From positions 124,001-188,000 of the forward strand of contig NZ_CANLZZ010000003.1 in NCBI RefSeq assembly GCF_947495725.1: 64,000 nt of DNA, read 5' to 3'. The notes beneath the pieces were generated by a model that was not told the DNA's origin, did no database searches, and saw nothing but the letters and a program-made list of their open reading frames with translations. Within the stretch, counting starts at the first letter, position 1; the number at the start of each line of letters is the position of its first letter. A program made the position numbers and the translations under genes. Of this stretch, positions 16,624-31,510 are shown piece by piece. This DNA comes from an uncultured Lutibacter sp. (lineage in GTDB: Bacteria; Bacteroidota; Bacteroidia; Flavobacteriales; Flavobacteriaceae).

Positions 16624-16787
16624 ACTGCCTACATTAGTAATTGTTTGTTAAACTCAACACTATATCTTTATAAAGGATGAGTCGTATTTGTAAAAGCAGG
16701 CCGTTTTAAACGGATCCTTGACCATTTCGTTAGTCCTAAACTTGTTTATAAGGAGTTTACAAAAACCATACTATTGTAGGTTTTTTT
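16624..16787 (+). ncRNA. ssrS: 6S RNA (Flavobacteria type)
   Basis: The segment folds into one long closed rod. CCTACATTAGTA (16628-16639) pairs with TACTATTGTAGG (16769-16780) over 11 of 12 positions, and TTTGTTAAACTC (16644-16655) pairs with GAGTTTACAAA (16753-16763). The middle has a small hairpin CCGTTTTAAACGG near 16703-16715 and a large unpaired region. A T run follows at once and ends transcription. 6S RNA mimics an open promoter and sequesters housekeeping RNA polymerase. Size, rod shape and position between zapA and rny support the call; no covariance search was possible. Confidence 0.7.
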
Positions 16788-18738: not shown

Positions 18739-21700
18739 ATGGGCACAAACCAGGAGGAAATTATTCAAACAAGAAAAGATATTGTACAGTACATAAACTT
18801 ACAATTAGAATCTTTAGGTCAACCAATTTTTACAGATGATGAGAACTCAGATGAAAAATTTTGCAATCTAAAATTTCAAAAATTAACAAATTCGTTAATT
18901 AAAAATTTTAAAGAAAAGTCGAGATTATTGTCAAATCATTTATCTCCTGTAGATACAAGGATACAGAATTTTTTAAATGATTACCTTAAAAATGTTCCTT
19001 TTGATAAGCCCTATGTATTACCAAATAACACTTTAATTTTAAATCAGAAAGGACATGCACGTGAGGCAAGTTTACCACCAAATGGTAAAACGTTTGTAAG
19101 CGAGAATATTACTTCACACAGAATAAAACAAGGGATTTTAAATAATCCAATTCATGATAAAAGAACAACTAAAGGAACATTTCATATTGTAGAAGGAGAC
19201 TTACCGGTACCTTTAGATAAAAAAGAAGTGCCAAAAATAGCTTTTGCACATTTTTTAAATGCTGCTTTTACTCCTTCAGATGAATTAAAAACATTACCAT
19301 TTACTTCAAACCAAGAGAACAAAGCAAAAGTAATAGTTTCATTTCTAATGAGACCAATGGTTTGTCCTGAGGTAAAAGGAGTAATTTCTAAAAAAAGTAT
19401 GGAGGTTCGCTTTTTTGCTCCTGGTAGTTTGGTAAGCAATTTAGATTTTGTTGAATCCATTTTCGGGAACGCCGGCGATCCTAATTTAGCACATAATGAT
19501 GCAGCTCTGGATACCGAACATTGGACCGGACATACAGGATGTATAATTTTGGCACCTCAACTTAAAACCTTAACTAAAAAACAAGTTGGATTGCCTCATT
19601 ATAATGATGCTACAGATCGTCAAAAAAATGATGGTATGTGCTGGAAAGATGATAATGAATTATATAATGACGGTAGCGCTTTTAAAGTAACTTGTAGAGA
19701 CGATAGAGGTGTTGTTGTAACTATTATTGCTGATAATTATTTTGGATATTCAAAAAAGGAAATTAAAACCCAAATTAGTTATTCGGCAAATTTATTTGGA
19801 TTGGTTGAAGAAGAGCATTCTGGCGGTGCAATAGCTTATCCAAGAGGTGTAATGGGGGATATTGTTGATGGTAGTGCATTTTCAGCTAAATTTGGGAATA
19901 GATTTAGTTTTGAAAATGTTAAAAATTTATTAGGTGATAGAATTGAAGTAAAAGATTCAAATTATGCAATAGATAAAAAGTACCCGAATTTAGTTTATAT
20001 TCCTGAAAACGCCTATATAAATACCAATACCAATAATATAACTTGGACATATAAAAATGTAGAACAAGAACTAACATTATCTCCTCTTAAAACATATATA
20101 CATCCAACAGGAAATAAGTTTAGATTAGAAAAACACAAGGCAATTTCTTTGTGGAGAATTGTAAATACTTCTCCAGAAGGTATTTTTTGCCATAAACCTT
20201 GTACTGTATCAGGTGGAGGGAAATCGGAAATTTCAAAATCTATGCTAAATGCTATTACATATAATACATTTAATATTTTAGATATTGATGAAGATTTTAA
20301 AAAGGCTGATGAAATTATTGAATATGATTACTCAAAAAGATGGAAAAATTTCGATTCATCGTTACCACCATCAAAACCATTTTTAAGCAAAGAACGTACT
20401 CTTGGTTCGGCAGTAATGTTATTAACTCCATCAAGTGATAATAGTGATGAGTTTAATGAGTTTGTTAAAAATATTCCTGTTCATATTAGATCGCTGGTTT
20501 TATTTGTAAAACGATTATACAGACAAGATCACGGAGATTTAAATTGGAAAGATTGTATGTCTGTTCAAATTATAAATGGACAAAAAGGAACAGGGCTTTG
20601 GTATTTTAACAATCCTGTGGTTGGTAGTTATGTTAGAATTGGATTTAATCCAGAAGGAAGATGGATGTTAAATAAATTACGTTCAGATTTTTCTGCGAGT
20701 ACAAAAATTCAGTTAGAAGATGATATTTCAGCTTCAATAACTTTACCTAGAAATAAGTTTAAAAATTTAAACAACCAATACACAAATAAAAGTTTAAAGG
20801 TTGTAGCAAATTGTGAGTCGCATTTATTCCAAAGACCCGATGAAGCAATTGTTAGAGGTTATGATGAAGGAGCAGAGCGTGATTTAGTATCGGGCAACGT
20901 ATTTTTAACTAATTACGAGCTATTAACTAAAAAAGACGCTATTGAAATATTTGAAGACACTATTAACTATGATAAATATACACAGCCTGTAAAAGATTTA
21001 ATTTTAAGTGTTGTTAATAGTCCAAATGATGAAGAATATTTTTCTTTACCATCGCACACTAGAATTGTTGATGGAGAACCAACAAAAAATCCTCGTTATT
21101 TAGAAAAAAACATTTTTATTAATGAAACTGAAGATAGTTATTTAGGCGAAGTAGGTGTAAGGTTGTTTAGGAAAATAAAATCTGAAGACCCAGTTATTAA
21201 TGTTGTAAATGCTGTTTTGCCAGGGAGAAGAAATAATCCAGTAGATAAAGAAGCTGGTATTAGACCATTGGCAGTTTACAACCCAATTCATTATCAAGAA
21301 ACTCCAGAGTTATTTATGGACTTTATTTGTAGTTTAACGGGGAAATCTCCTTCAACTACTGGTGCCGGATCTGAGGGAGCATTAACAAAAGGACCTTTTA
21401 ATATGTTAACTCCAACTACAGATTTAAACAATGCATTATTATCGCATATTTTAACAGAATCTAATGCGTTTAGTACTGCCGCAGGTTATGTTGGAGCTGA
21501 AAATAAAGTAGACCATGACATTAGTTTATTAATACCCGAAATTTGGGCTCGTTTGGAAGCAGAGGATAGAGATCCAAAAGCGTTAATTGAAAATGGTTCT
21601 TTAGAAAAAATTGAAGATTTTGAATATAATGGTAATAAAGTTTTAGCAAGCCGCTTAGGATATAGAATTACTAGTACGTTTTCTTTAAGATGTTTAAATC

Positions 21701-22206
21701 GTTTATTTGACGAGCCAAATGCTGTTTTTAGTGAAAAAATGTTGAAACCAGAATTACAAGGTCTAGAAGATTATGTAGACGGTATTGCAAATATTGTTGA
21801 GGCACAACAAAAAGTAGCGTTAAGATATTTTGCTGATGGAAGTGTTGAAGCAGCTATTCCTCCATTAAAAATAATTCTTCATGTTATGGCTTATGGACAG
21901 TATGAAGGTAAAGAAATTAGCGATCCAACTTTAAGAGCTTATTTTGATAGAGATTATGTTTTAAAAAGCGATTGGTATAAAGAGCGTTTAAAATTAAAGC
22001 AACAAAAAGATGTAAATTTTTATATAAAACAAATTAATTATTTAGAAACGTTTATTTCGAACCCGAAAAACGATTTAATTGTTGAAGAATTAAATTTAGT
22101 TGAAAAATTAGAAAATGTTAAAAACATGTATAGTAAAGCCAATTCTAACGAGTATTTAAAATCGTTAGAAGGAACTATTGGAACTGATCCATTGTTTAGA
22201 AAATAA
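18739..22206 (+). CDS. Putative pyrophosphate-dependent phosphoenolpyruvate carboxykinase
   Basis: 1155 residues, cytoplasmic, no signal peptide. Length matches the PPi-type PEPCK family described from Entamoeba and Propionibacterium (about 1100-1150), roughly twice the ATP or GTP enzymes. Motifs line up with GTP-PEPCK: K340 (GYSKKEIKTQ) and H360 (EEEHSGGAIAY) are 20 residues apart like the Mn ligands K244 and H264 of the rat enzyme. A P-loop-like VSGGGKSE places K495, with D515 20 residues on, like K290 and D310. The segment between H360 and the loop is much longer than in classical PEPCK. Another conserved-looking motif is TTGAGSEGALTKGPFN near 873-888. Reaction expected: PEP + CO2 + Pi to oxaloacetate + PPi. 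Homology is inferred from motif order, not from a search. Single gene with own promoter and terminator. Confidence 0.65.
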   Translation: MGTNQEEIIQTRKDIVQYINLQLESLGQPIFTDDENSDEKFCNLKFQKLTNSLIKNFKEKSRLLSNHLSPVDTRIQNFLNDYLKNVPFDKPYVLPNNTLILNQKGHAREASLPPNGKTFVSENITSHRIKQGILNNPIHDKRTTKGTFHIVEGDLPVPLDKKEVPKIAFAHFLNAAFTPSDELKTLPFTSNQENKAKVIVSFLMRPMVCPEVKGVISKKSMEVRFFAPGSLVSNLDFVESIFGNAGDPNLAHNDAALDTEHWTGHTGCIILAPQLKTLTKKQVGLPHYNDATDRQKNDGMCWKDDNELYNDGSAFKVTCRDDRGVVVTIIADNYFGYSKKEIKTQISYSANLFGLVEEEHSGGAIAYPRGVMGDIVDGSAFSAKFGNRFSFENVKNLLGDRIEVKDSNYAIDKKYPNLVYIPENAYINTNTNNITWTYKNVEQELTLSPLKTYIHPTGNKFRLEKHKAISLWRIVNTSPEGIFCHKPCTVSGGGKSEISKSMLNAITYNTFNILDIDEDFKKADEIIEYDYSKRWKNFDSSLPPSKPFLSKERTLGSAVMLLTPSSDNSDEFNEFVKNIPVHIRSLVLFVKRLYRQDHGDLNWKDCMSVQIINGQKGTGLWYFNNPVVGSYVRIGFNPEGRWMLNKLRSDFSASTKIQLEDDISASITLPRNKFKNLNNQYTNKSLKVVANCESHLFQRPDEAIVRGYDEGAERDLVSGNVFLTNYELLTKKDAIEIFEDTINYDKYTQPVKDLILSVVNSPNDEEYFSLPSHTRIVDGEPTKNPRYLEKNIFINETEDSYLGEVGVRLFRKIKSEDPVINVVNAVLPGRRNNPVDKEAGIRPLAVYNPIHYQETPELFMDFICSLTGKSPSTTGAGSEGALTKGPFNMLTPTTDLNNALLSHILTESNAFSTAAGYVGAENKVDHDISLLIPEIWARLEAEDRDPKALIENGSLEKIEDFEYNGNKVLASRLGYRITSTFSLRCLNRLFDEPNAVFSEKMLKPELQGLEDYVDGIANIVEAQQKVALRYFADGSVEAAIPPLKIILHVMAYGQYEGKEISDPTLRAYFDRDYVLKSDWYKERLKLKQQKDVNFYIKQINYLETFISNPKNDLIVEELNLVEKLENVKNMYSKANSNEYLKSLEGTIGTDPLFRK

Positions 22207-24747: not shown

Positions 24748-24987
24748 ATGAGTAAATTAAACTCCTTAGCCATAAGTGAAAACGGTTTTATATTTAAGCC
24801 TTCAACAGGAGAATCTTTTGTAACCAATGAAATTGGTTTATTTATAATACAGTTACTAAAATCTGGAAAAAAAGCTGATGAAATTATTCAAGAAATAATT
24901 AAAGATTTTGAGGTTGATAATTTAACAGCAGGAAAAGATTTGTATGAATTTTTAGATTTCTTAAAAAAAGAAAACATGACCGATTAG
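24748..24987 (+). CDS. PqqD-like (RRE-type) domain protein
   Basis: 79 residues. The pattern LAISENGFIFKPSTGESFVT, then NEIGLFIIQLLKSGKKADEI, then a segment ending DLYEFLDFLKKENM is that of PqqD: three short strands followed by a winged-helix bundle. In characterised pathways such domains bind a leader peptide and present it to a modifying enzyme; others work with HPr-like systems. Here the gene opens a six-gene operon and is followed after two bases by an ATP-grasp ligase, so the protein probably serves that enzyme. The 273 bases upstream (24475-24747) contain no precursor-peptide ORF and no clear promoter. Confidence 0.8.
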   Translation: MSKLNSLAISENGFIFKPSTGESFVTNEIGLFIIQLLKSGKKADEIIQEIIKDFEVDNLTAGKDLYEFLDFLKKENMTD

Positions 24988-24989
24988 TT

Positions 24990-26033
24990 ATGGAAAAAAA
25001 GAAACTAAATATTGCCGTAACAGGCCTAAATAATATTGATAGTCCTGGCCCAGGTGTTCCGGTTATAAGAGCACTAAAAAAATCGGGAATGGATGTTAAA
25101 ATTATTGGGTTGGCTTATGAAAATCTAGAACCTGGAATTTATATGCCTGGCTTGGTAGATAAGTCTTATTTAATGCCATTTCCTTCTACCGGAAGTGAAG
25201 CCTTTTTAGAGCGATTAGCTTATATACATAAAAAAGAAAACTTGGATATTGTTATACCAAATTTCGATTCTGAATTATTTTTATTTATTAAATTTAATGA
25301 GAGATTAAAGCAAATGGGTATTTCTACATTTCTACCTACGTTAGAACAATTTGAAGAACGACATAAAGATAATTTACCTGAATATGCCCGTAAATATAAC
25401 ATAACCGTTCCAGAAAGTAAACCTTTGGTAAATATTAAAGAATTAGAAAATTTACCAAAACCTTTAAGTTACCCTTATTTTATAAAAGGTAAATTTTACG
25501 AAGCTTTTAAAGTTTCTAACCTAGCACAATCACAATATTATTTTAATAAATTATCTGCAAAATGGGGGTTACCTGTTGTTGTGCAACAAGCTATTCAAGG
25601 TACAGAAGTAAATGTAATAGCTTTAGGCGATGGTGAAGGAAATACGGTTTCGGCTGTGCCTATGCGCAAGCAATATATAACAGATAAAGGAAAAGCTTGG
25701 GGCGGAATTACCATAAGCGATGAACGTTTACTCAAAATTACTCACGATATAATAAAAAAAACAAAATGGCGTGGAGCATTAGAACTTGAAATGATTAAAA
25801 CCGATGATGGTGAATATTATTTAATAGAAATTAATCCGCGAATACCTGCTTGGGTATATTTGGCCGTAGGCGCTGGGCAAAATTTACCAGAACTGTTGTG
25901 CAAATTAGCTCTAGGTGAAAAAGTTGACCCGATAAAAGAGTACAAAACAGGAAAAATGTTTATTCGGTATTCTTGGGATTTAATTGGAGATATTTCCGAT
26001 TTTGAAAAAATTATAGTATTTGGTGAATTATAA
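24990..26033 (+). CDS. ATP-grasp carboxylate-amine/thiol ligase
   Basis: 347 residues. Residues 1-115 form a Rossmann-like pre-ATP-grasp domain (LNIAVTGLNNIDSPGPGVPV); ATP-grasp spans about 120-310. Nucleotide and metal residues are visible: K166/K168 (YFIKGKF), E206 with the QGTEVNVIAL strand, E268, and E280-x-N282 in LIEINPRIP. It resembles the carbamoyl-phosphate-synthase-like and PylC-like branch, enzymes that activate a carboxylate as acyl phosphate and join it to an amine. The substrate is not evident. Two bases after the PqqD-like gene and ten before the PLP enzyme, so translationally linked to both. Confidence 0.85.
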   Translation: MEKKKLNIAVTGLNNIDSPGPGVPVIRALKKSGMDVKIIGLAYENLEPGIYMPGLVDKSYLMPFPSTGSEAFLERLAYIHKKENLDIVIPNFDSELFLFIKFNERLKQMGISTFLPTLEQFEERHKDNLPEYARKYNITVPESKPLVNIKELENLPKPLSYPYFIKGKFYEAFKVSNLAQSQYYFNKLSAKWGLPVVVQQAIQGTEVNVIALGDGEGNTVSAVPMRKQYITDKGKAWGGITISDERLLKITHDIIKKTKWRGALELEMIKTDDGEYYLIEINPRIPAWVYLAVGAGQNLPELLCKLALGEKVDPIKEYKTGKMFIRYSWDLIGDISDFEKIIVFGEL

Positions 26034-26043
26034 AATTAACAAG

Positions 26044-27390
26044 ATGAGCAAAAAAATATACGAACGCCCAATTCTTCGAAAAGTAGTAGAAGGTATACCT
26101 AATAAATTTGGGAGTTTAAAGCGGTTAAGACCAATAAGTAAAATTGATGATGTAGAAATAGATTCAATAATGGATACCTATGGTTCTCCAGTTTTTATAA
26201 TTTCAGAAAATACCATTAGAAATACTTATAGAAGTGCTTATAGAGCTTTCGCTACACGTTATCCAAAAGTTCAATTTGCGTGGTCTTATAAAACTAATTA
26301 TTTAGATGCAGTTTGTAGAATATTTCATCAAGAAGGGGCTTGGGCAGAAGTTGTGTCAGGGTTTGAATATGAAAAAGCTATTGATAATAATATTTCTGGA
26401 AATAAAATTATTTTTAATGGTCCAGATAAAAGCAAGGAAGATTTAAAAATAGCAATCAATAATAATTCACTAATTCATATTGATCATTTTGATGAATTAA
26501 ATACAATTTTAGAATTACGAAAAGAGCTAGATAAACAACCGCAAGTTGCAATTAGGGTAAATATGGATACTGGAATAATTCCACAATGGGATCGTTTTGG
26601 ATTTAATTATGAGAATGGCGAAGCTTGGAACGCAATTAATAGAATTTTAAGTAGTGGTTTAATGGATTTAATTGGTTTACATGTTCACGTTGGAACTTAT
26701 ATAAGTACATCTAAAGCATATACAATTGCAATTCAAAAATTAGCCGAATTAGCAAATAAAACTTACAATCGATTTAATACATTAATTAGCTATATTGATG
26801 TTGGTGGTGGTTTTGCTTCCCAAAACACTTTACAAGGTGCCTATATGCCTGCAACCGATACCTGTCCAAGTTTTGATGATTATGCACATGCCATTACTTC
26901 AGCAATGAATGAAGCTTCCTTTCCAAATAATGAATTTCCAACACTTATTTTGGAAACAGGTCGTGCTATGATTGATGAAGCGGGTTGGTTAGCAGGTACT
27001 GTTTTGGCAAACAAAAGGTTAGCTGACGGAAGAAGAGCTATGGTAATTGACGCTGGAATTAATTTAATGTTTACTGCCTTTTGGTACGATTATGAAATTT
27101 ACCCATTGCACGAAACTAGTTTTCAGTCCGAGCCAACTACAATTTACGGTCCGTTGTGCATGAATATTGATGTAATTAGAAAAAATATAAACTTTCCATT
27201 GTTAAATAAAGATGATCGTTTTGTAATTAAACGAGTTGGAGCATATACAATGACTCAATGGATGCAGTTTATTACATATCGTCCAAACATTGTAATGATT
27301 GATGCCAATAAAGAAGTTCATGTAATTCGTAAAAAAGAAGATAAAGAGGTGTTTAGGCAGCAAGAAGAAATTCCAAAACATTTACTGTAG
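26044..27390 (+). CDS. PLP-dependent fold-type III decarboxylase (DAP/ornithine decarboxylase-like)
   Basis: 448 residues from ATG at 26044; an in-frame GTG at 26020 would overlap the ligase gene. The alanine-racemase-like barrel carries the PLP lysine K83 (FAWSYKTNYL), the phosphate-binding VGGGF at 253-257, HVHVGTYIS near 213-221 and ETGR near 304-307. The C-terminal beta domain has GPLCMNID (369-376) in the place of the GPxC...D active-site pair of diaminopimelate and ornithine decarboxylases. It therefore probably decarboxylates a basic or diamino acid, possibly a peptidyl or amide product of the neighbouring ligase. It is not lysA in the usual context, and specificity cannot be read from sequence. 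Confidence 0.85.
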   Translation: MSKKIYERPILRKVVEGIPNKFGSLKRLRPISKIDDVEIDSIMDTYGSPVFIISENTIRNTYRSAYRAFATRYPKVQFAWSYKTNYLDAVCRIFHQEGAWAEVVSGFEYEKAIDNNISGNKIIFNGPDKSKEDLKIAINNNSLIHIDHFDELNTILELRKELDKQPQVAIRVNMDTGIIPQWDRFGFNYENGEAWNAINRILSSGLMDLIGLHVHVGTYISTSKAYTIAIQKLAELANKTYNRFNTLISYIDVGGGFASQNTLQGAYMPATDTCPSFDDYAHAITSAMNEASFPNNEFPTLILETGRAMIDEAGWLAGTVLANKRLADGRRAMVIDAGINLMFTAFWYDYEIYPLHETSFQSEPTTIYGPLCMNIDVIRKNINFPLLNKDDRFVIKRVGAYTMTQWMQFITYRPNIVMIDANKEVHVIRKKEDKEVFRQQEEIPKHLL

Positions 27391-27399
27391 AAATTAAAT

Positions 27400-29604
27400 A
27401 TGAACTTAAGATTACCTAATAAAGATATTTCAATTTGGAAAGCAATATTAAAAAGCTATTCTCAGGTCTTTTTTTCTGAAAGCAAATTATTTGCAGCGAT
27501 ACTTTTATTGGTGAGTTTTATTGATTGGTGGACTGGGGTTTGTGGATTATTAGCTATTATAATTGCCATTGGAATAGCTAAAATTCTTGAATACGATGAA
27601 ACAACTATTCAAAAAGGATTGTTTAGTTTTAACTCACTTCTTGTTGGTTTAGGAATTGGAACTTACTTTTCTCCAAGCATCGAAGTTTTATTTTTACTAT
27701 TAATAGGTAGTGCAATTGCATTTTTTGTAACTGTAATTTTAATGGGTGTTTTCGCTAAATATGGATTACCTTTTTTAAGCTTACCGTTTTTAGTTGCAAT
27801 TTGGATTCTCATGTTATCTTTTCCAACTTTTACAAATGTAGCTTTAAACTCAGATGCATTATTTCCTTCAAATATGTTTCATAAAATAGGAGGAAATTCT
27901 TTAGTAAGCTTCATTAATTTGTTGGATTCTGTTTTTATAGACACTTCATTTGGAACCTACTTTTTATCGTTAGGAGCCATTTTTTTTCAATTTAATATTC
28001 TTGCCGGAATTTTTATAGCAATTGGTTTACTTATTCATTCTAGAGTTCATTTTTTATTCTCTTTAATTGGTTTTTTTGTTGCTTATTGGTTCTATTCATT
28101 TTTAGGATTGTATACAGGATCATTAAATTACACCTATTATGGATTTAACTTTGTACTTTCAGCAATTGCAATTGGTGGTTATTTTTTAATTCCTTCAAAA
28201 CAGTCTTTATTGTGGAGTATTTTTTTAATTCCAGCGTTGGTTGTTGTAACTATAGGAAGCGATAGACTATTTGCAGTTTTTGAGTTGTCAGTTTTTTCAT
28301 TACCCTTTAACTTAGTTCTTATAAGTGTTTTATATGCTTTAAAAATTAGGTTCGACCAAACAAAACAACCAGTTTTAACCTACTTTCAACAAAGAAATCC
28401 AGAAACAAATGCTTACTTGTTCGATAGTCAATCGAATAAAGAATATGCCTCGTTTATCAATTCAGTTCGTTTGCCTTTTTTGGGGGAATGGACTATTAAC
28501 CAAGGACATAACGGGAATTATACACATCAAGGATTTTATAAATTTGCATGGGATTTTGTAATTAAAGATGAGCATACGAATTTAGAATTTTTAAATGACG
28601 GTTATACTGTAGAAGATTATTATTGTTTTGGAAAGCCAGTAATTTCTCCTGCTGAAGGAGTTGTTGTTGCGGTTGTTAATACTGTAGAAGATAATGACAT
28701 AGGTATTGCAAATACAAGACAAAACTGGGGGAATACTGTAGTAATAAAACACGATACATTTTTATTTTCAAAAATAAGTCATTTACAAAAAGGTTCAATA
28801 AAAGTAGTTGTTGGAGAAAGTGTTTATGAAGGACAGGAGCTTGGTAAGTGTGGAAATTCTGGGCGTTCACCTTATCCGCATCTTCATTTTCAATTACAAG
28901 CATCATCAAAAATTGGTAGTCCTGCTATGTTTTACCCTTTGGAAGACTATATTGTTGAAAATCAAACAGAAAAACAAGAATACATTCAAAAAGGAATTCC
29001 TTTAGAAAATAGTACAGTTTCGAATATTAATAGTTCAGCTTTACTTTTAGAGGCTTTTAAATGGAATCCTGGAGATTCGTTTATTATTGAGTTACAACAT
29101 GAAAATTCCGAATTAAAATTATATGAAATAGAAAATCAGATAAATATTTATAATCAATCATTTTTAGTTTGTAAAAAAACAGGAGCAAAATTATATTACA
29201 GAAATAATAATAAAACGTTCGATATTATAAATTATATAGGTTCATTAAAAAGTCCTTTGGCAATTTTTAATAAATCCTTATATAAAGTTGTATTTACTGA
29301 AAAGTCTGAATTAACAATATTTTCACGCTTTCCAATACATCATTTATATGGTTTTCCAACAAGAGTAATTCAAGATTTTTTAGTTCCTTTTGGTATTTTT
29401 CTTAAAGGAAATTATCAATTACATTATAATAAAAGTGAGGTTTTATTTAATCAACAAGAAATAAAACTTAACTCTCAAATTTTAGGGAATAATAATAAAC
29501 AATTATTTTCTGCGGACATTACTATTGGTAAAAACAAAGAAATAAGTTGTATATGTAAGCAACCAAACAAAGATAAAATTTATTTAAAATGGGCAAAAAA
29601 ATAG
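27400..29604 (+). CDS. Urea-transporter domain fused to an M23 peptidase domain
   Basis: 734 residues. Residues 1-320 are a urea-transporter (UT) channel: about ten membrane segments, with the two-fold signature GLFSFNSLLVGLGIGTYF (73-90) and YGLPFLSLPF (121-130). A soluble segment leads to an M23/LytM domain at about 360-510 with H376, D385, H461 and H494-x-H496 (PYPHLHFQLQ); H376 and D385 are nine apart instead of the usual four. The last 200 residues have no recognised fold. The peptidase part is expected on the periplasmic side. The gene sits ten bases after the PLP enzyme and overlaps the next gene. The channel may carry a small amide, amine or guanidino compound made by the operon rather than urea; this is inference. 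Confidence 0.85.
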   Translation: MNLRLPNKDISIWKAILKSYSQVFFSESKLFAAILLLVSFIDWWTGVCGLLAIIIAIGIAKILEYDETTIQKGLFSFNSLLVGLGIGTYFSPSIEVLFLLLIGSAIAFFVTVILMGVFAKYGLPFLSLPFLVAIWILMLSFPTFTNVALNSDALFPSNMFHKIGGNSLVSFINLLDSVFIDTSFGTYFLSLGAIFFQFNILAGIFIAIGLLIHSRVHFLFSLIGFFVAYWFYSFLGLYTGSLNYTYYGFNFVLSAIAIGGYFLIPSKQSLLWSIFLIPALVVVTIGSDRLFAVFELSVFSLPFNLVLISVLYALKIRFDQTKQPVLTYFQQRNPETNAYLFDSQSNKEYASFINSVRLPFLGEWTINQGHNGNYTHQGFYKFAWDFVIKDEHTNLEFLNDGYTVEDYYCFGKPVISPAEGVVVAVVNTVEDNDIGIANTRQNWGNTVVIKHDTFLFSKISHLQKGSIKVVVGESVYEGQELGKCGNSGRSPYPHLHFQLQASSKIGSPAMFYPLEDYIVENQTEKQEYIQKGIPLENSTVSNINSSALLLEAFKWNPGDSFIIELQHENSELKLYEIENQINIYNQSFLVCKKTGAKLYYRNNNKTFDIINYIGSLKSPLAIFNKSLYKVVFTEKSELTIFSRFPIHHLYGFPTRVIQDFLVPFGIFLKGNYQLHYNKSEVLFNQQEIKLNSQILGNNNKQLFSADITIGKNKEISCICKQPNKDKIYLKWAKK

Positions 29605-30896
29605 CAATTGTGATGGTTTTGTTGCTGATGATTAACAGTTTGCATTCTCAACAAAATAAAAATTCATATAAAACAATTGATAGTTTAACTTATGACTTGT
29701 TTTTAAAGCAAGAATGGAAAAATTTATTAAAAGTTGGAAATGATTTTAAAAAAAACGAAACAGATTTTTATTATTTAAAAATAAGAATGGGAATTGCCAA
29801 TTTTAAATTAGGCAAATATTTATTAGCGGTAAAATTGCTGGAAGAAGCATACAATTTAAATAACTTTAATGTTGTTGTTCAAGATTATTTATACTGGGCT
29901 TATAGGTATTCCGGTTTATATTTAGAATCTGATATGTTTTATAAAAAAATGGACGCTACGCTTCAAAAACAAATAGGCTTGGATTTAAAATTTATCTCTG
30001 CTGTTGATGTTGGTGTAGTTGCAACTTCCAATCCCGATTACGATAATCTATTGTTAGGAAACACTGCAAGTGAAACAATAAATACACGTAATTTTATAGA
30101 TAATCATCAAATTATAACAGTAGGTTTAAATCACAGGTTTTCTAATAACTCTAATTTTTATCATAGACTTACAGTTATGCCACGTAAATTAGTTTATCAA
30201 GAAAATAATTCGGGAGCAACTACTAATATATTTTACGAAGGAACCGAAATTAGATATTACGCCGATGCTACTTTTTCTTTAGGAAAACGCTGGTATTTAG
30301 ATGCTTATGCAGTTCTTTTATTTGGAGAATATGATGATTTATCTAGTCTGTCCACTGAAAATTCGATTAATTCAAATAATAAAATAAACTATTCAGATGT
30401 TGTTTTTGGTGGAGCAATATCAAAATCTAGTATTTATTTTAGAAATAGTTTTAATATATCGTATTCTAATTTAAATGGAGCAAACCAATTACAAACCGGT
30501 TATTCAATTTCAATGTATCCACTTGGTAATAACTTAGTTGTGCCATTTGGATCATTTCAGTACTTAAGCGAAAGTCTCGATTCAAATTCCGAAAACAGAT
30601 TTATATATTCAGGTGGAGTAGCTGTTAATAAAAATAAAATGTCTTTAACGGGTTTTGCAACGATTGGAGAAATTAAAAATTATATTTCTAGTAATGGATT
30701 GGTGGTATACAATCAATTGGCAGAAACAGAAAGTGAATTTGGAGCTATATTACAAGTTTATTTAAACAAATTTCAACTAAAATTAGGATATTCATTAATG
30801 AATATGAAAGATTATAGTATATCTGATATAGAAATACAAAATTCATTTAAATACAAACAACAAAACTTAATATTAGGAGTAACATGGACGCAGTAA
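29589..30896 (+). CDS. Outer-membrane protein with N-terminal TPR-like region and C-terminal beta-barrel
   Basis: 435 residues. Signal peptide 1-20 (ends LHSQ). Residues about 25-130 are helical and TPR-like (FYYLKIRMGIANFKLGKYLL). From about 140 to the end alternating polar/hydrophobic strands form a barrel that ends YKQQNLILGVTWTQ. The overall build resembles YaiO-type outer-membrane proteins. The start overlaps the transporter gene by 16 bases, showing coupled translation. Probably the outer-membrane component of the system encoded by this operon. Confidence 0.75.
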   Translation: MGKKIAIVMVLLLMINSLHSQQNKNSYKTIDSLTYDLFLKQEWKNLLKVGNDFKKNETDFYYLKIRMGIANFKLGKYLLAVKLLEEAYNLNNFNVVVQDYLYWAYRYSGLYLESDMFYKKMDATLQKQIGLDLKFISAVDVGVVATSNPDYDNLLLGNTASETINTRNFIDNHQIITVGLNHRFSNNSNFYHRLTVMPRKLVYQENNSGATTNIFYEGTEIRYYADATFSLGKRWYLDAYAVLLFGEYDDLSSLSTENSINSNNKINYSDVVFGGAISKSSIYFRNSFNISYSNLNGANQLQTGYSISMYPLGNNLVVPFGSFQYLSESLDSNSENRFIYSGGVAVNKNKMSLTGFATIGEIKNYISSNGLVVYNQLAETESEFGAILQVYLNKFQLKLGYSLMNMKDYSISDIEIQNSFKYKQQNLILGVTWTQ

Positions 30897-31510
30897 AAAG
30901 AAATATTTTTTTAGGTTATTTAGTATTATTAATTAGCAATGCTAGCTATGGTCAACACAATTTTTCGTTAATTCAAGATGCTTTTAATGAAAGTTACAAA
31001 TTAGAGGCTAGTGGTGATTTTAAAGATGCTGCTAATAAAATTAAGGAGGTTTACAAAGAAGATTTTTACGAATCTAATTTGCGACTTGGCTGGTTGAATT
31101 ATATGGCCGGAAATTTTAATGAGTCTATTGCTTTTTATCAAAAATCGATAGCTCTAATGCCTTTTGCTGAAGAACCAAAATTTGGCTATGTTTTTCCACT
31201 TTCGGCCTTGGGACGTTGGGATGAAGTAATTACTGTTTACAGTCAAATTTTAGAAAACTCGAGCAATAATACCAAAGCTTTGTATTATTTAGGAACTATT
31301 TATTACAATAGAAAACAATACGATAAAGCCTTAACTTATTTTAAAAGAATGACAGATTTATATCCTTTCGATTTTGATGCCTTGTATATGTATGCTTGGA
31401 GTAATTTACAATTAGGCAAAAAGAAAGAAGCTAAATTACTGTTTCAAAAAGCATTATTAAACAAGCCGGGTAATGCTGAAGCAAAAAGCGGATTGTTGTT
31501 AACCGAATAA
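30884..31510 (+). CDS. Secreted tetratricopeptide-repeat protein
   Basis: 208 residues. Signal peptide about 1-23 (ends ASYGQ). At least four TPR units are visible, for instance YMAGNFNESIAFYQKSIALM and YNRKQYDKALTYFKRMTDLY. Its start overlaps the barrel gene by 13 bases. As last gene of the operon it is probably a periplasmic adaptor that links the barrel or the M23 domain to its substrate. It ends five bases from a convergent gene. Confidence 0.8.
   Translation: MDAVKRNIFLGYLVLLISNASYGQHNFSLIQDAFNESYKLEASGDFKDAANKIKEVYKEDFYESNLRLGWLNYMAGNFNESIAFYQKSIALMPFAEEPKFGYVFPLSALGRWDEVITVYSQILENSSNNTKALYYLGTIYYNRKQYDKALTYFKRMTDLYPFDFDALYMYAWSNLQLGKKKEAKLLFQKALLNKPGNAEAKSGLLLTE

Follow-up and report, generated by a model that had tools for sequence, protein, structure and literature searches.

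A compact six-gene operon in a Lutibacter genome

We analysed a window of 64,000 nucleotides (contig NZ_CANLZZ010000003.1) from an uncultured bacterium that, judged by its named relatives and genus-mates, is of or near Lutibacter. The window carries a tightly packed plus-strand operon of six genes, here called A to F, that encode a PqqD-like protein, an ATP-grasp ligase, a pyridoxal phosphate (PLP) decarboxylase, a fusion of a urea channel to an M23 peptidase, a predicted outer-membrane barrel with tetratricopeptide repeats (TPR), and a TPR protein (Table 1). All six open reading frames (ORFs) were confirmed in place, with gaps of 2, 10 and 9 bp at A-B, B-C and C-D and overlaps of 16 and 13 bp at D-E and E-F. 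These spacings had been given correctly in a preliminary description of this DNA, whose domain assignments for A, B, C, D and F also agreed with Pfam matches above cut-off; E had no Pfam match over cut-off, and its reading as a TPR-barrel protein is taken from the predicted structure. For C, the mechanical ORF start is a TTG at 26020; we preferred the ATG at 26044 because the eight residues preceding it are mostly gaps in an alignment of 35 family members.

Table 1. Genes of the operon and related loci in viral and plasmid DNA (aa, amino acids).
Feature	Position	Strand	Product	Evidence
A	24748..24987	+	79-aa PqqD/RRE-like protein	PF05402 41 bits (cut-off 23.4)
B	24990..26033	+	347-aa ATP-grasp ligase, PRK12767/carbamoyl-phosphate-synthase-like	ATPgrasp_Ter 41.1 bits (cut-off 29.1)
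C	26044..27390	+	448-aa alanine-racemase-fold PLP decarboxylase	Orn_Arg_deC_N 103.8 bits (cut-off 23.4)
D	27400..29604	+	734-aa fusion	UT 204.7 bits (cut-off 25) + Peptidase_M23 55.2 (28.7)
E	29589..30896	+	N-terminal helix, TPR helices, predicted 14-strand outer-membrane barrel	Predicted structure
F	30884..31510	+	208-aa TPR protein	TPR by Pfam
Phage trio	L062:3444-5922		PqqD, ATP-grasp, decarboxylase near replication genes
Streptomyces zaomyceticus plasmid fusion	L065:7995-10271		Single 758-aa ATP-grasp + PLP-decarboxylase protein

The gene set is carried all or none across Bacteroidota

We searched 392 Bacteroidota genomes (the window's own included, completeness of at least 90 requested) with profiles of D, C and B at E-value cut-offs of 1e-30, 1e-70 and 1e-40, respectively, at which weaker, more distant relatives go uncounted. 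The C and B profiles each matched 35 genomes, the weakest members reaching 2.5e-208 and 2.1e-133. The D profile matched 43, in 35 of them including the urea transporter (UT) half and in 8 through the M23 half only. At these cut-offs, the B, C and full-D families occupy an identical set of 35 genomes and no others, and about 9% of the sampled Bacteroidota carry the set, all or none.

All 34 full-D loci from the other genomes were fetched and compared, together with six M23-only loci. A, B, C and D share one neighbourhood in every one of the 34, as expected from the earlier proposal of a single unit. A was detected by tblastn in 33; in locus L025 it is an ORF that falls into the A cluster and scores below cut-off with PqqD models, and in L051 it lies about 2 kb upstream of B. 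F was present in 32 loci (absent from L042 and L051; in L046 cut by the end of the stretch). A barrel-like protein accompanies all 34. It is of E type by tblastn in 11 loci and a shorter barrel (cluster c6) in 18, following F in 15 of these and lying upstream of A-B in the other 3; a c19 barrel sits between D and F in 3 more, and in L023 and L042 the barrel was called by eye from one ORF each. None of the six M23-only loci contained A, B or C. The preliminary description had proposed looking for the same gene order in other genomes; with this done, the homologues proved to be linked, not scattered. The association of A, B, C and D is more than chance. Among the best 120 of at least 2545 D matches, 118 have both UT and M23, and named carriers among the matches listed are Polaribacter sp. 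Hel1_85, Seonamhaeicola aphaedonensis and Mariniphaga anaerophila.

Within the genus, full D was found in 10 of 37 genomes, some of them incomplete. The operon of the window is flanked by aroQ and a TIGR02757 gene. D sits between the same two genes in genomes G001, G016 and G024 and at other genomic places in G011 and G022; in G012, which has only an M23 match to D, the protein matches of the two flanking genes end 6 bp apart, which is just enough for two stop codons. As D lies between the same flanks in some genomes and elsewhere in others, and the flanks abut in G012, the operon acts like a cassette whose insertion site varies, gained and lost together. The system thereby comes with few genes and with clean presence/absence pairs within one genus.

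No name was found for the system in four family libraries, including Pfam, NCBIfam, PADLOC and PHROGs. The latter two gave no system-level match, PADLOC returning weak TPR and PrimPol matches (E 0.0007 to 0.006). Nor was it named in the literature searched, including the accessible portions of PMC8503589, PMC8939145, PMC12710340 and PMC2922099; an earlier mention in papers on ATP-grasp operons is possible. This is in line with the earlier statement that no named system has this composition, and the operon is real and conserved, the system being apparently undescribed.

A PqqD-like protein, a ligase and a decarboxylase with an altered pocket

A is the sole PqqD match at E≤0.01 in its genome, and its PDB matches are TbiB1 (1.6e-5) and TfuB1 (0.016; names as deposited). 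Its family includes peptide-binding RiPP (ribosomally synthesized and post-translationally modified peptide) recognition elements (RREs), according to these matches and PMC12710340. Against the PqqD_rel_X model of the HPr-rel-A system (TIGR04353, cut-off 35 bits) A falls short with 15.7 bits, the A protein of L025 scoring 31.2. Among 28 aligned A proteins we found no conserved C terminus and no invariant Cys, Lys or Ser, the latter making a carrier role unlikely. In B, an E-x-NPR motif is conserved in 35 rows.

In ornithine, arginine and diaminopimelate (DAP) enzymes, the side chain is recognised by an Asp beside the catalytic Cys together with an Asp or Arg of the specificity helix, and in FigC H357 and R387 read citrate (PMC7857480, which also covers the roles of BtrI and BtrK in the butirosin pathway). 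We mapped these positions onto C by alignment. The residue after the catalytic Cys is Met in 35/35 proteins, and the position of the DAP-reading Arg holds Thr in 34 and Ser in one; Ile and Gln, invariably, occupy those of FigC H357 and R387, and Trp355 is likewise present in all 35. Judged by this alignment, C has none of the residues by which free amines, diaminopimelate or citrate are recognised, and carries an invariant set of its own. A peptidoglycan-derived diamino acid as its substrate, along the lines of the earlier suggestion that the compound may be made from one, finds no support in these positions, C being without the Arg that reads meso-diaminopimelate, which the genome's own LysA keeps. 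This separate LysA (Glu, not Asp, after the Cys) scores 373 bits with TIGR01048 (cut-off 297.9), a model with which C reaches 208.3 bits; with the N-citrylornithine decarboxylase model NF041039 (cut-off 500), C reaches 231.1 bits. In both NCBIfam and PDB, the window's C matches FslC/FigC best.

The C pocket would best suit a substrate whose distal group is neutral and of amide type. An order of ligation by B before decarboxylation of the amide-linked amino acid by C, the core of the scheme weighed below, is moderately supported. FslC/FigC (rhizoferrin) and SbnH have the same ligate-then-decarboxylate logic and Met after the catalytic Cys; FslC/FigC differ in that the citrate-reading H357/R387 are replaced by Ile/Gln in C and an ATP-grasp enzyme stands in place of the NRPS-independent siderophore (NIS) synthetase.

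A channel-peptidase fusion and an accompanying barrel

D is predicted to be one chain in which a urea-channel fold (residues 5-346) is followed by an M23 domain with intact catalytic residues (about 352-533) and a beta-rich C-terminal domain (about 534-734). H376, D385, H461, H494 and H496, which we take to be the M23 metal/catalytic residues, are invariant in 66 rows. D has the PF03253 domain and the UT fold, and scores 127 bits with the urea-transporter equivalog TIGR03441 (cut-off 274.6). In contrast to UT/SLC14 urea channels, it carries an M23 peptidase and another domain in the same chain and has no urease link: urease alpha occurs in 13 of the 392 genomes, namely in 1/35 system genomes and 12/357 others, so that urea use via urease shows no enrichment with the system. 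No channel-peptidase fusion was present among the solved structures listed.

Over 66 D proteins, mean net charge is +1.5 in the N tail, +3.3 in the C tail and -1.7 in the central loop (other loops not assigned to a side), a bias that suggests that the M23 domain may face the cytoplasm (N-in/C-in). Two overlapping ORFs, broken at a run of T, make up D in L046 (L046:7944-10198), reflecting either a frameshift or a genuine UT/M23 split, and the M23-half ORF is without an evident signal peptide. By eye, the N termini of the six M23-only relatives are signal-peptide-like or lipobox-like. Cys content was dropped as a sign of a cytoplasmic M23, since these relatives (0.29-1.24% Cys) span the same range as the M23 (1.06%) and C-terminal (0.84%) parts of D.

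The predicted structure of E (mean predicted local distance difference test score 88) combines TPR with a 14-strand outer-membrane barrel, the strands being counted by eye. TPR-plus-barrel exporters such as BcsC and PgaA likewise have an N-terminal TPR part and then an outer-membrane barrel; E differs in its best structural matches, the top Foldseek matches being FadL/TodX/CymA/OmpG-type small-molecule channels. In pairwise HHalign comparisons, the barrels of E, c6 and c19 were linked at probabilities of 96.7-97.2 (the c19 alignment has three rows only), with the c6 barrel against F as a control giving 1.0 and E against F 97.3 through their shared TPR part. The N terminus of F is signal-peptide-like by eye. 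Directly upstream of A-B, 11/34 loci encode a protein of cluster c5 (279-358 aa; e.g. L029:5218-6054), which is not found there in 22/34; L051 has a longer c5 member at this place. Both c5 proteins tested carry a type IX secretion system (T9SS) sorting tail, and the cluster is partly held together by this shared tail. A c5 protein is possibly a partner or substrate of the system.

The A-B-C module in phage and plasmid DNA

An A-B-C trio with overlapping ends lies on a viral contig (IMGVR_UViG_3300047160_011268; 65.7 kb long, 15.9 kb examined). The PqqD protein (74 aa) scores 30.6 bits (cut-off 23.4), the ATP-grasp protein is 36% to B and the decarboxylase 42% to C, sharing the Thr, Trp, Met, Ile and Gln of C. 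Five of eight tested neighbour ORFs match phage families (DNA polymerase, exonuclease, DNA methyltransferase, endonuclease and nucleoside 2-deoxyribosyltransferase). D, E and F had no match at E<0.01 in the 15.9 kb, an arrangement consistent with the division into biosynthetic (A-B-C) and channel/outer-membrane (D-E-F) modules made in the preliminary description. What the phage gains from A-B-C is a question that this copy raises. Viral-collection scans with B and phage C gave no second phage contig, and phage B had no match in the phage collection. Eight matches to phage C there (26-28% identical) were read as probable host LysA-like DNA, and locus L063 holds a different, distant ATP-grasp protein (24%).

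C had no match among plasmids at 1e-60. A Streptomyces zaomyceticus plasmid encodes a single protein whose B-like half is 27% to phage B (E 5e-17) and whose decarboxylase half is over the Pfam cut-off; downstream lie an ORF of 195 aa that Pfam does not match and an annotated fatty acid desaturase gene. Enzyme fusions usually represent consecutive or complexed steps. On an Antarctobacter plasmid (L066:7917-10954), two tandem alanine-racemase-fold decarboxylases have no ATP-grasp annotated in the 17 kb examined, and we assigned them to a different system; an ORF of 76 aa that Pfam does not match accompanies them, and genes annotated as methyltransferase and hydrolase come next, making this another unnamed decarboxylase cluster.

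Biosynthesis and release as the leading interpretation

Six features of the operon come directly from computation: the gene set, its linkage, its co-inheritance, the predicted folds, the retained catalytic residues and the changed C pocket. Building on them, we infer a reaction order, a direction, a side for the M23 domain and a product. We tentatively favour a six-gene biosynthesis-and-release system, a reading in which our confidence is real but limited. A, of leader-binding (RRE) type, would hold the acceptor or the ligase; B would couple an amino acid to the acceptor through an amide at the expense of ATP; and C would strip the alpha-carboxyl of the joined amino acid to leave a neutral, amide-linked amine. 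This product, or a small amide fragment freed by the M23 of D, would pass the inner membrane via the urea-type pore and exit through the E-type barrel, scaffolded by the TPR proteins. The operon resembles RRE-dependent pathways to RiPPs and cofactors (lasso peptides, PQQ, mycofactocin) in having a discrete PqqD-type RRE beside modifying enzymes and a metallopeptidase in the set; it differs from them in that no linked precursor peptide was found and in its lack of a radical SAM or lasso synthetase domain by Pfam. By pairing a decarboxylase of unread substrate pocket with a PqqD-type protein and a channel-peptidase fusion, the system could lead to a metabolite or a modification that is new, and to a further role for urea-type channels.

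Several observations weigh against biosynthesis and release. B also resembles carbamoyl-phosphate synthase and biotin carboxylases, so that its reaction may be other than amide ligation. M23 domains normally act outside the cytoplasm, and a passive urea-type pore would pass a very small product only. Polymer porins (BcsC at rank 10, AlgE and PgaA-type) also match E in Foldseek; BcsC was absent among 50 rows of another E structure search, which does not rule it out. As to the role of A, no precursor-peptide family present in more than three loci emerged from 441 short ORFs on the same strand close to the operon (35 loci), although remote, very short or divergent precursors could escape. Upstream of A, a stretch of 430 bp is poorly alignable across five Lutibacter and contains, in the window, one Met-started frame of at least 15 residues (49 aa, minus strand). 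Phage C scores higher with LysA (178.5) than with FslC (164.1), both under cut-off. In the Streptomyces fusion, the ATP-grasp half stays at 24.2 bits, below the Pfam cut-off of 29.1, the C half shares only Met of the pocket residues of C, and 0/3 tested neighbours are PqqD-like.

Possible, if on the unlikely side, is a trans-envelope conduit: the C-terminal half of D would be periplasmic, clear peptidoglycan, dock the TPR proteins and join the pore to the barrel, with A-B-C making the cargo. The intact M23 residues, the barrel-like protein and F that accompany D, and the N termini of the M23-only relatives would all suit this arrangement. However, the tail and loop charges of D suggest N-in/C-in, mammalian UTs have that same orientation, and the separate M23 ORF of L046, though maybe due to a frameshift, has no evident signal peptide. 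A more specific arrangement, which we consider unlikely, has D as a channel with a cytoplasmic M23 at its mouth: A-B-C would build a decarboxylated, amide-linked adduct on a peptide or protein, and M23 would free a small amide in the cytoplasm for exit via the pore and the dedicated barrel. If true, this would be a new class of small-molecule synthesis/release machine whose biosynthetic core is also phage-borne.

Improbable in our view is a covalent modification of a polymer or protein of the envelope or surface, in which A-B-C would attach a decarboxylated amino acid as a cap to a protein or a peptidoglycan precursor, and D-F would act on the modified envelope. The upstream c5 proteins, with sorting tails in the two tested, and the peptide-binding RREs in the family of A speak for it, but most loci lack a c5 neighbour of this kind, the shared tail partly holds the c5 cluster together, and C is without the DAP-reading Arg. 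Import of urea or a small amide to serve nitrogen or osmotic needs, the compound then being processed by A-C, draws on the full UT domain of D and is quite improbable given the urease distribution and the TIGR03441 score. We give hardly any credence to a butirosin-type logic, in which B would load an amino acid onto A as covalent carrier and C would decarboxylate it there: the order small protein, ATP-grasp ligase, alanine-racemase-fold decarboxylase is that of btrI-btrJ-btrK, and BtrK is among the PDB relatives of C, but A has a PqqD/RRE fold (PF05402), not that of an acyl carrier, and neither a conserved carrier residue nor a conserved C terminus.

Other features of the window

No Rfam match lay inside the operon. 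The Bacteroidetes promoter consensus TTTG-N17-23-TANNTTTG gave 9 matches against 8.8 expected, none of them upstream of A, and was rejected as a guide to a promoter there. Elsewhere in the window, an ORF of 1155 aa (18739-22206) has no Pfam match at E≤0.1, and a 6S-Flavo RNA (Rfam RF01685, 100.4 bits) lies at 16652-16758.

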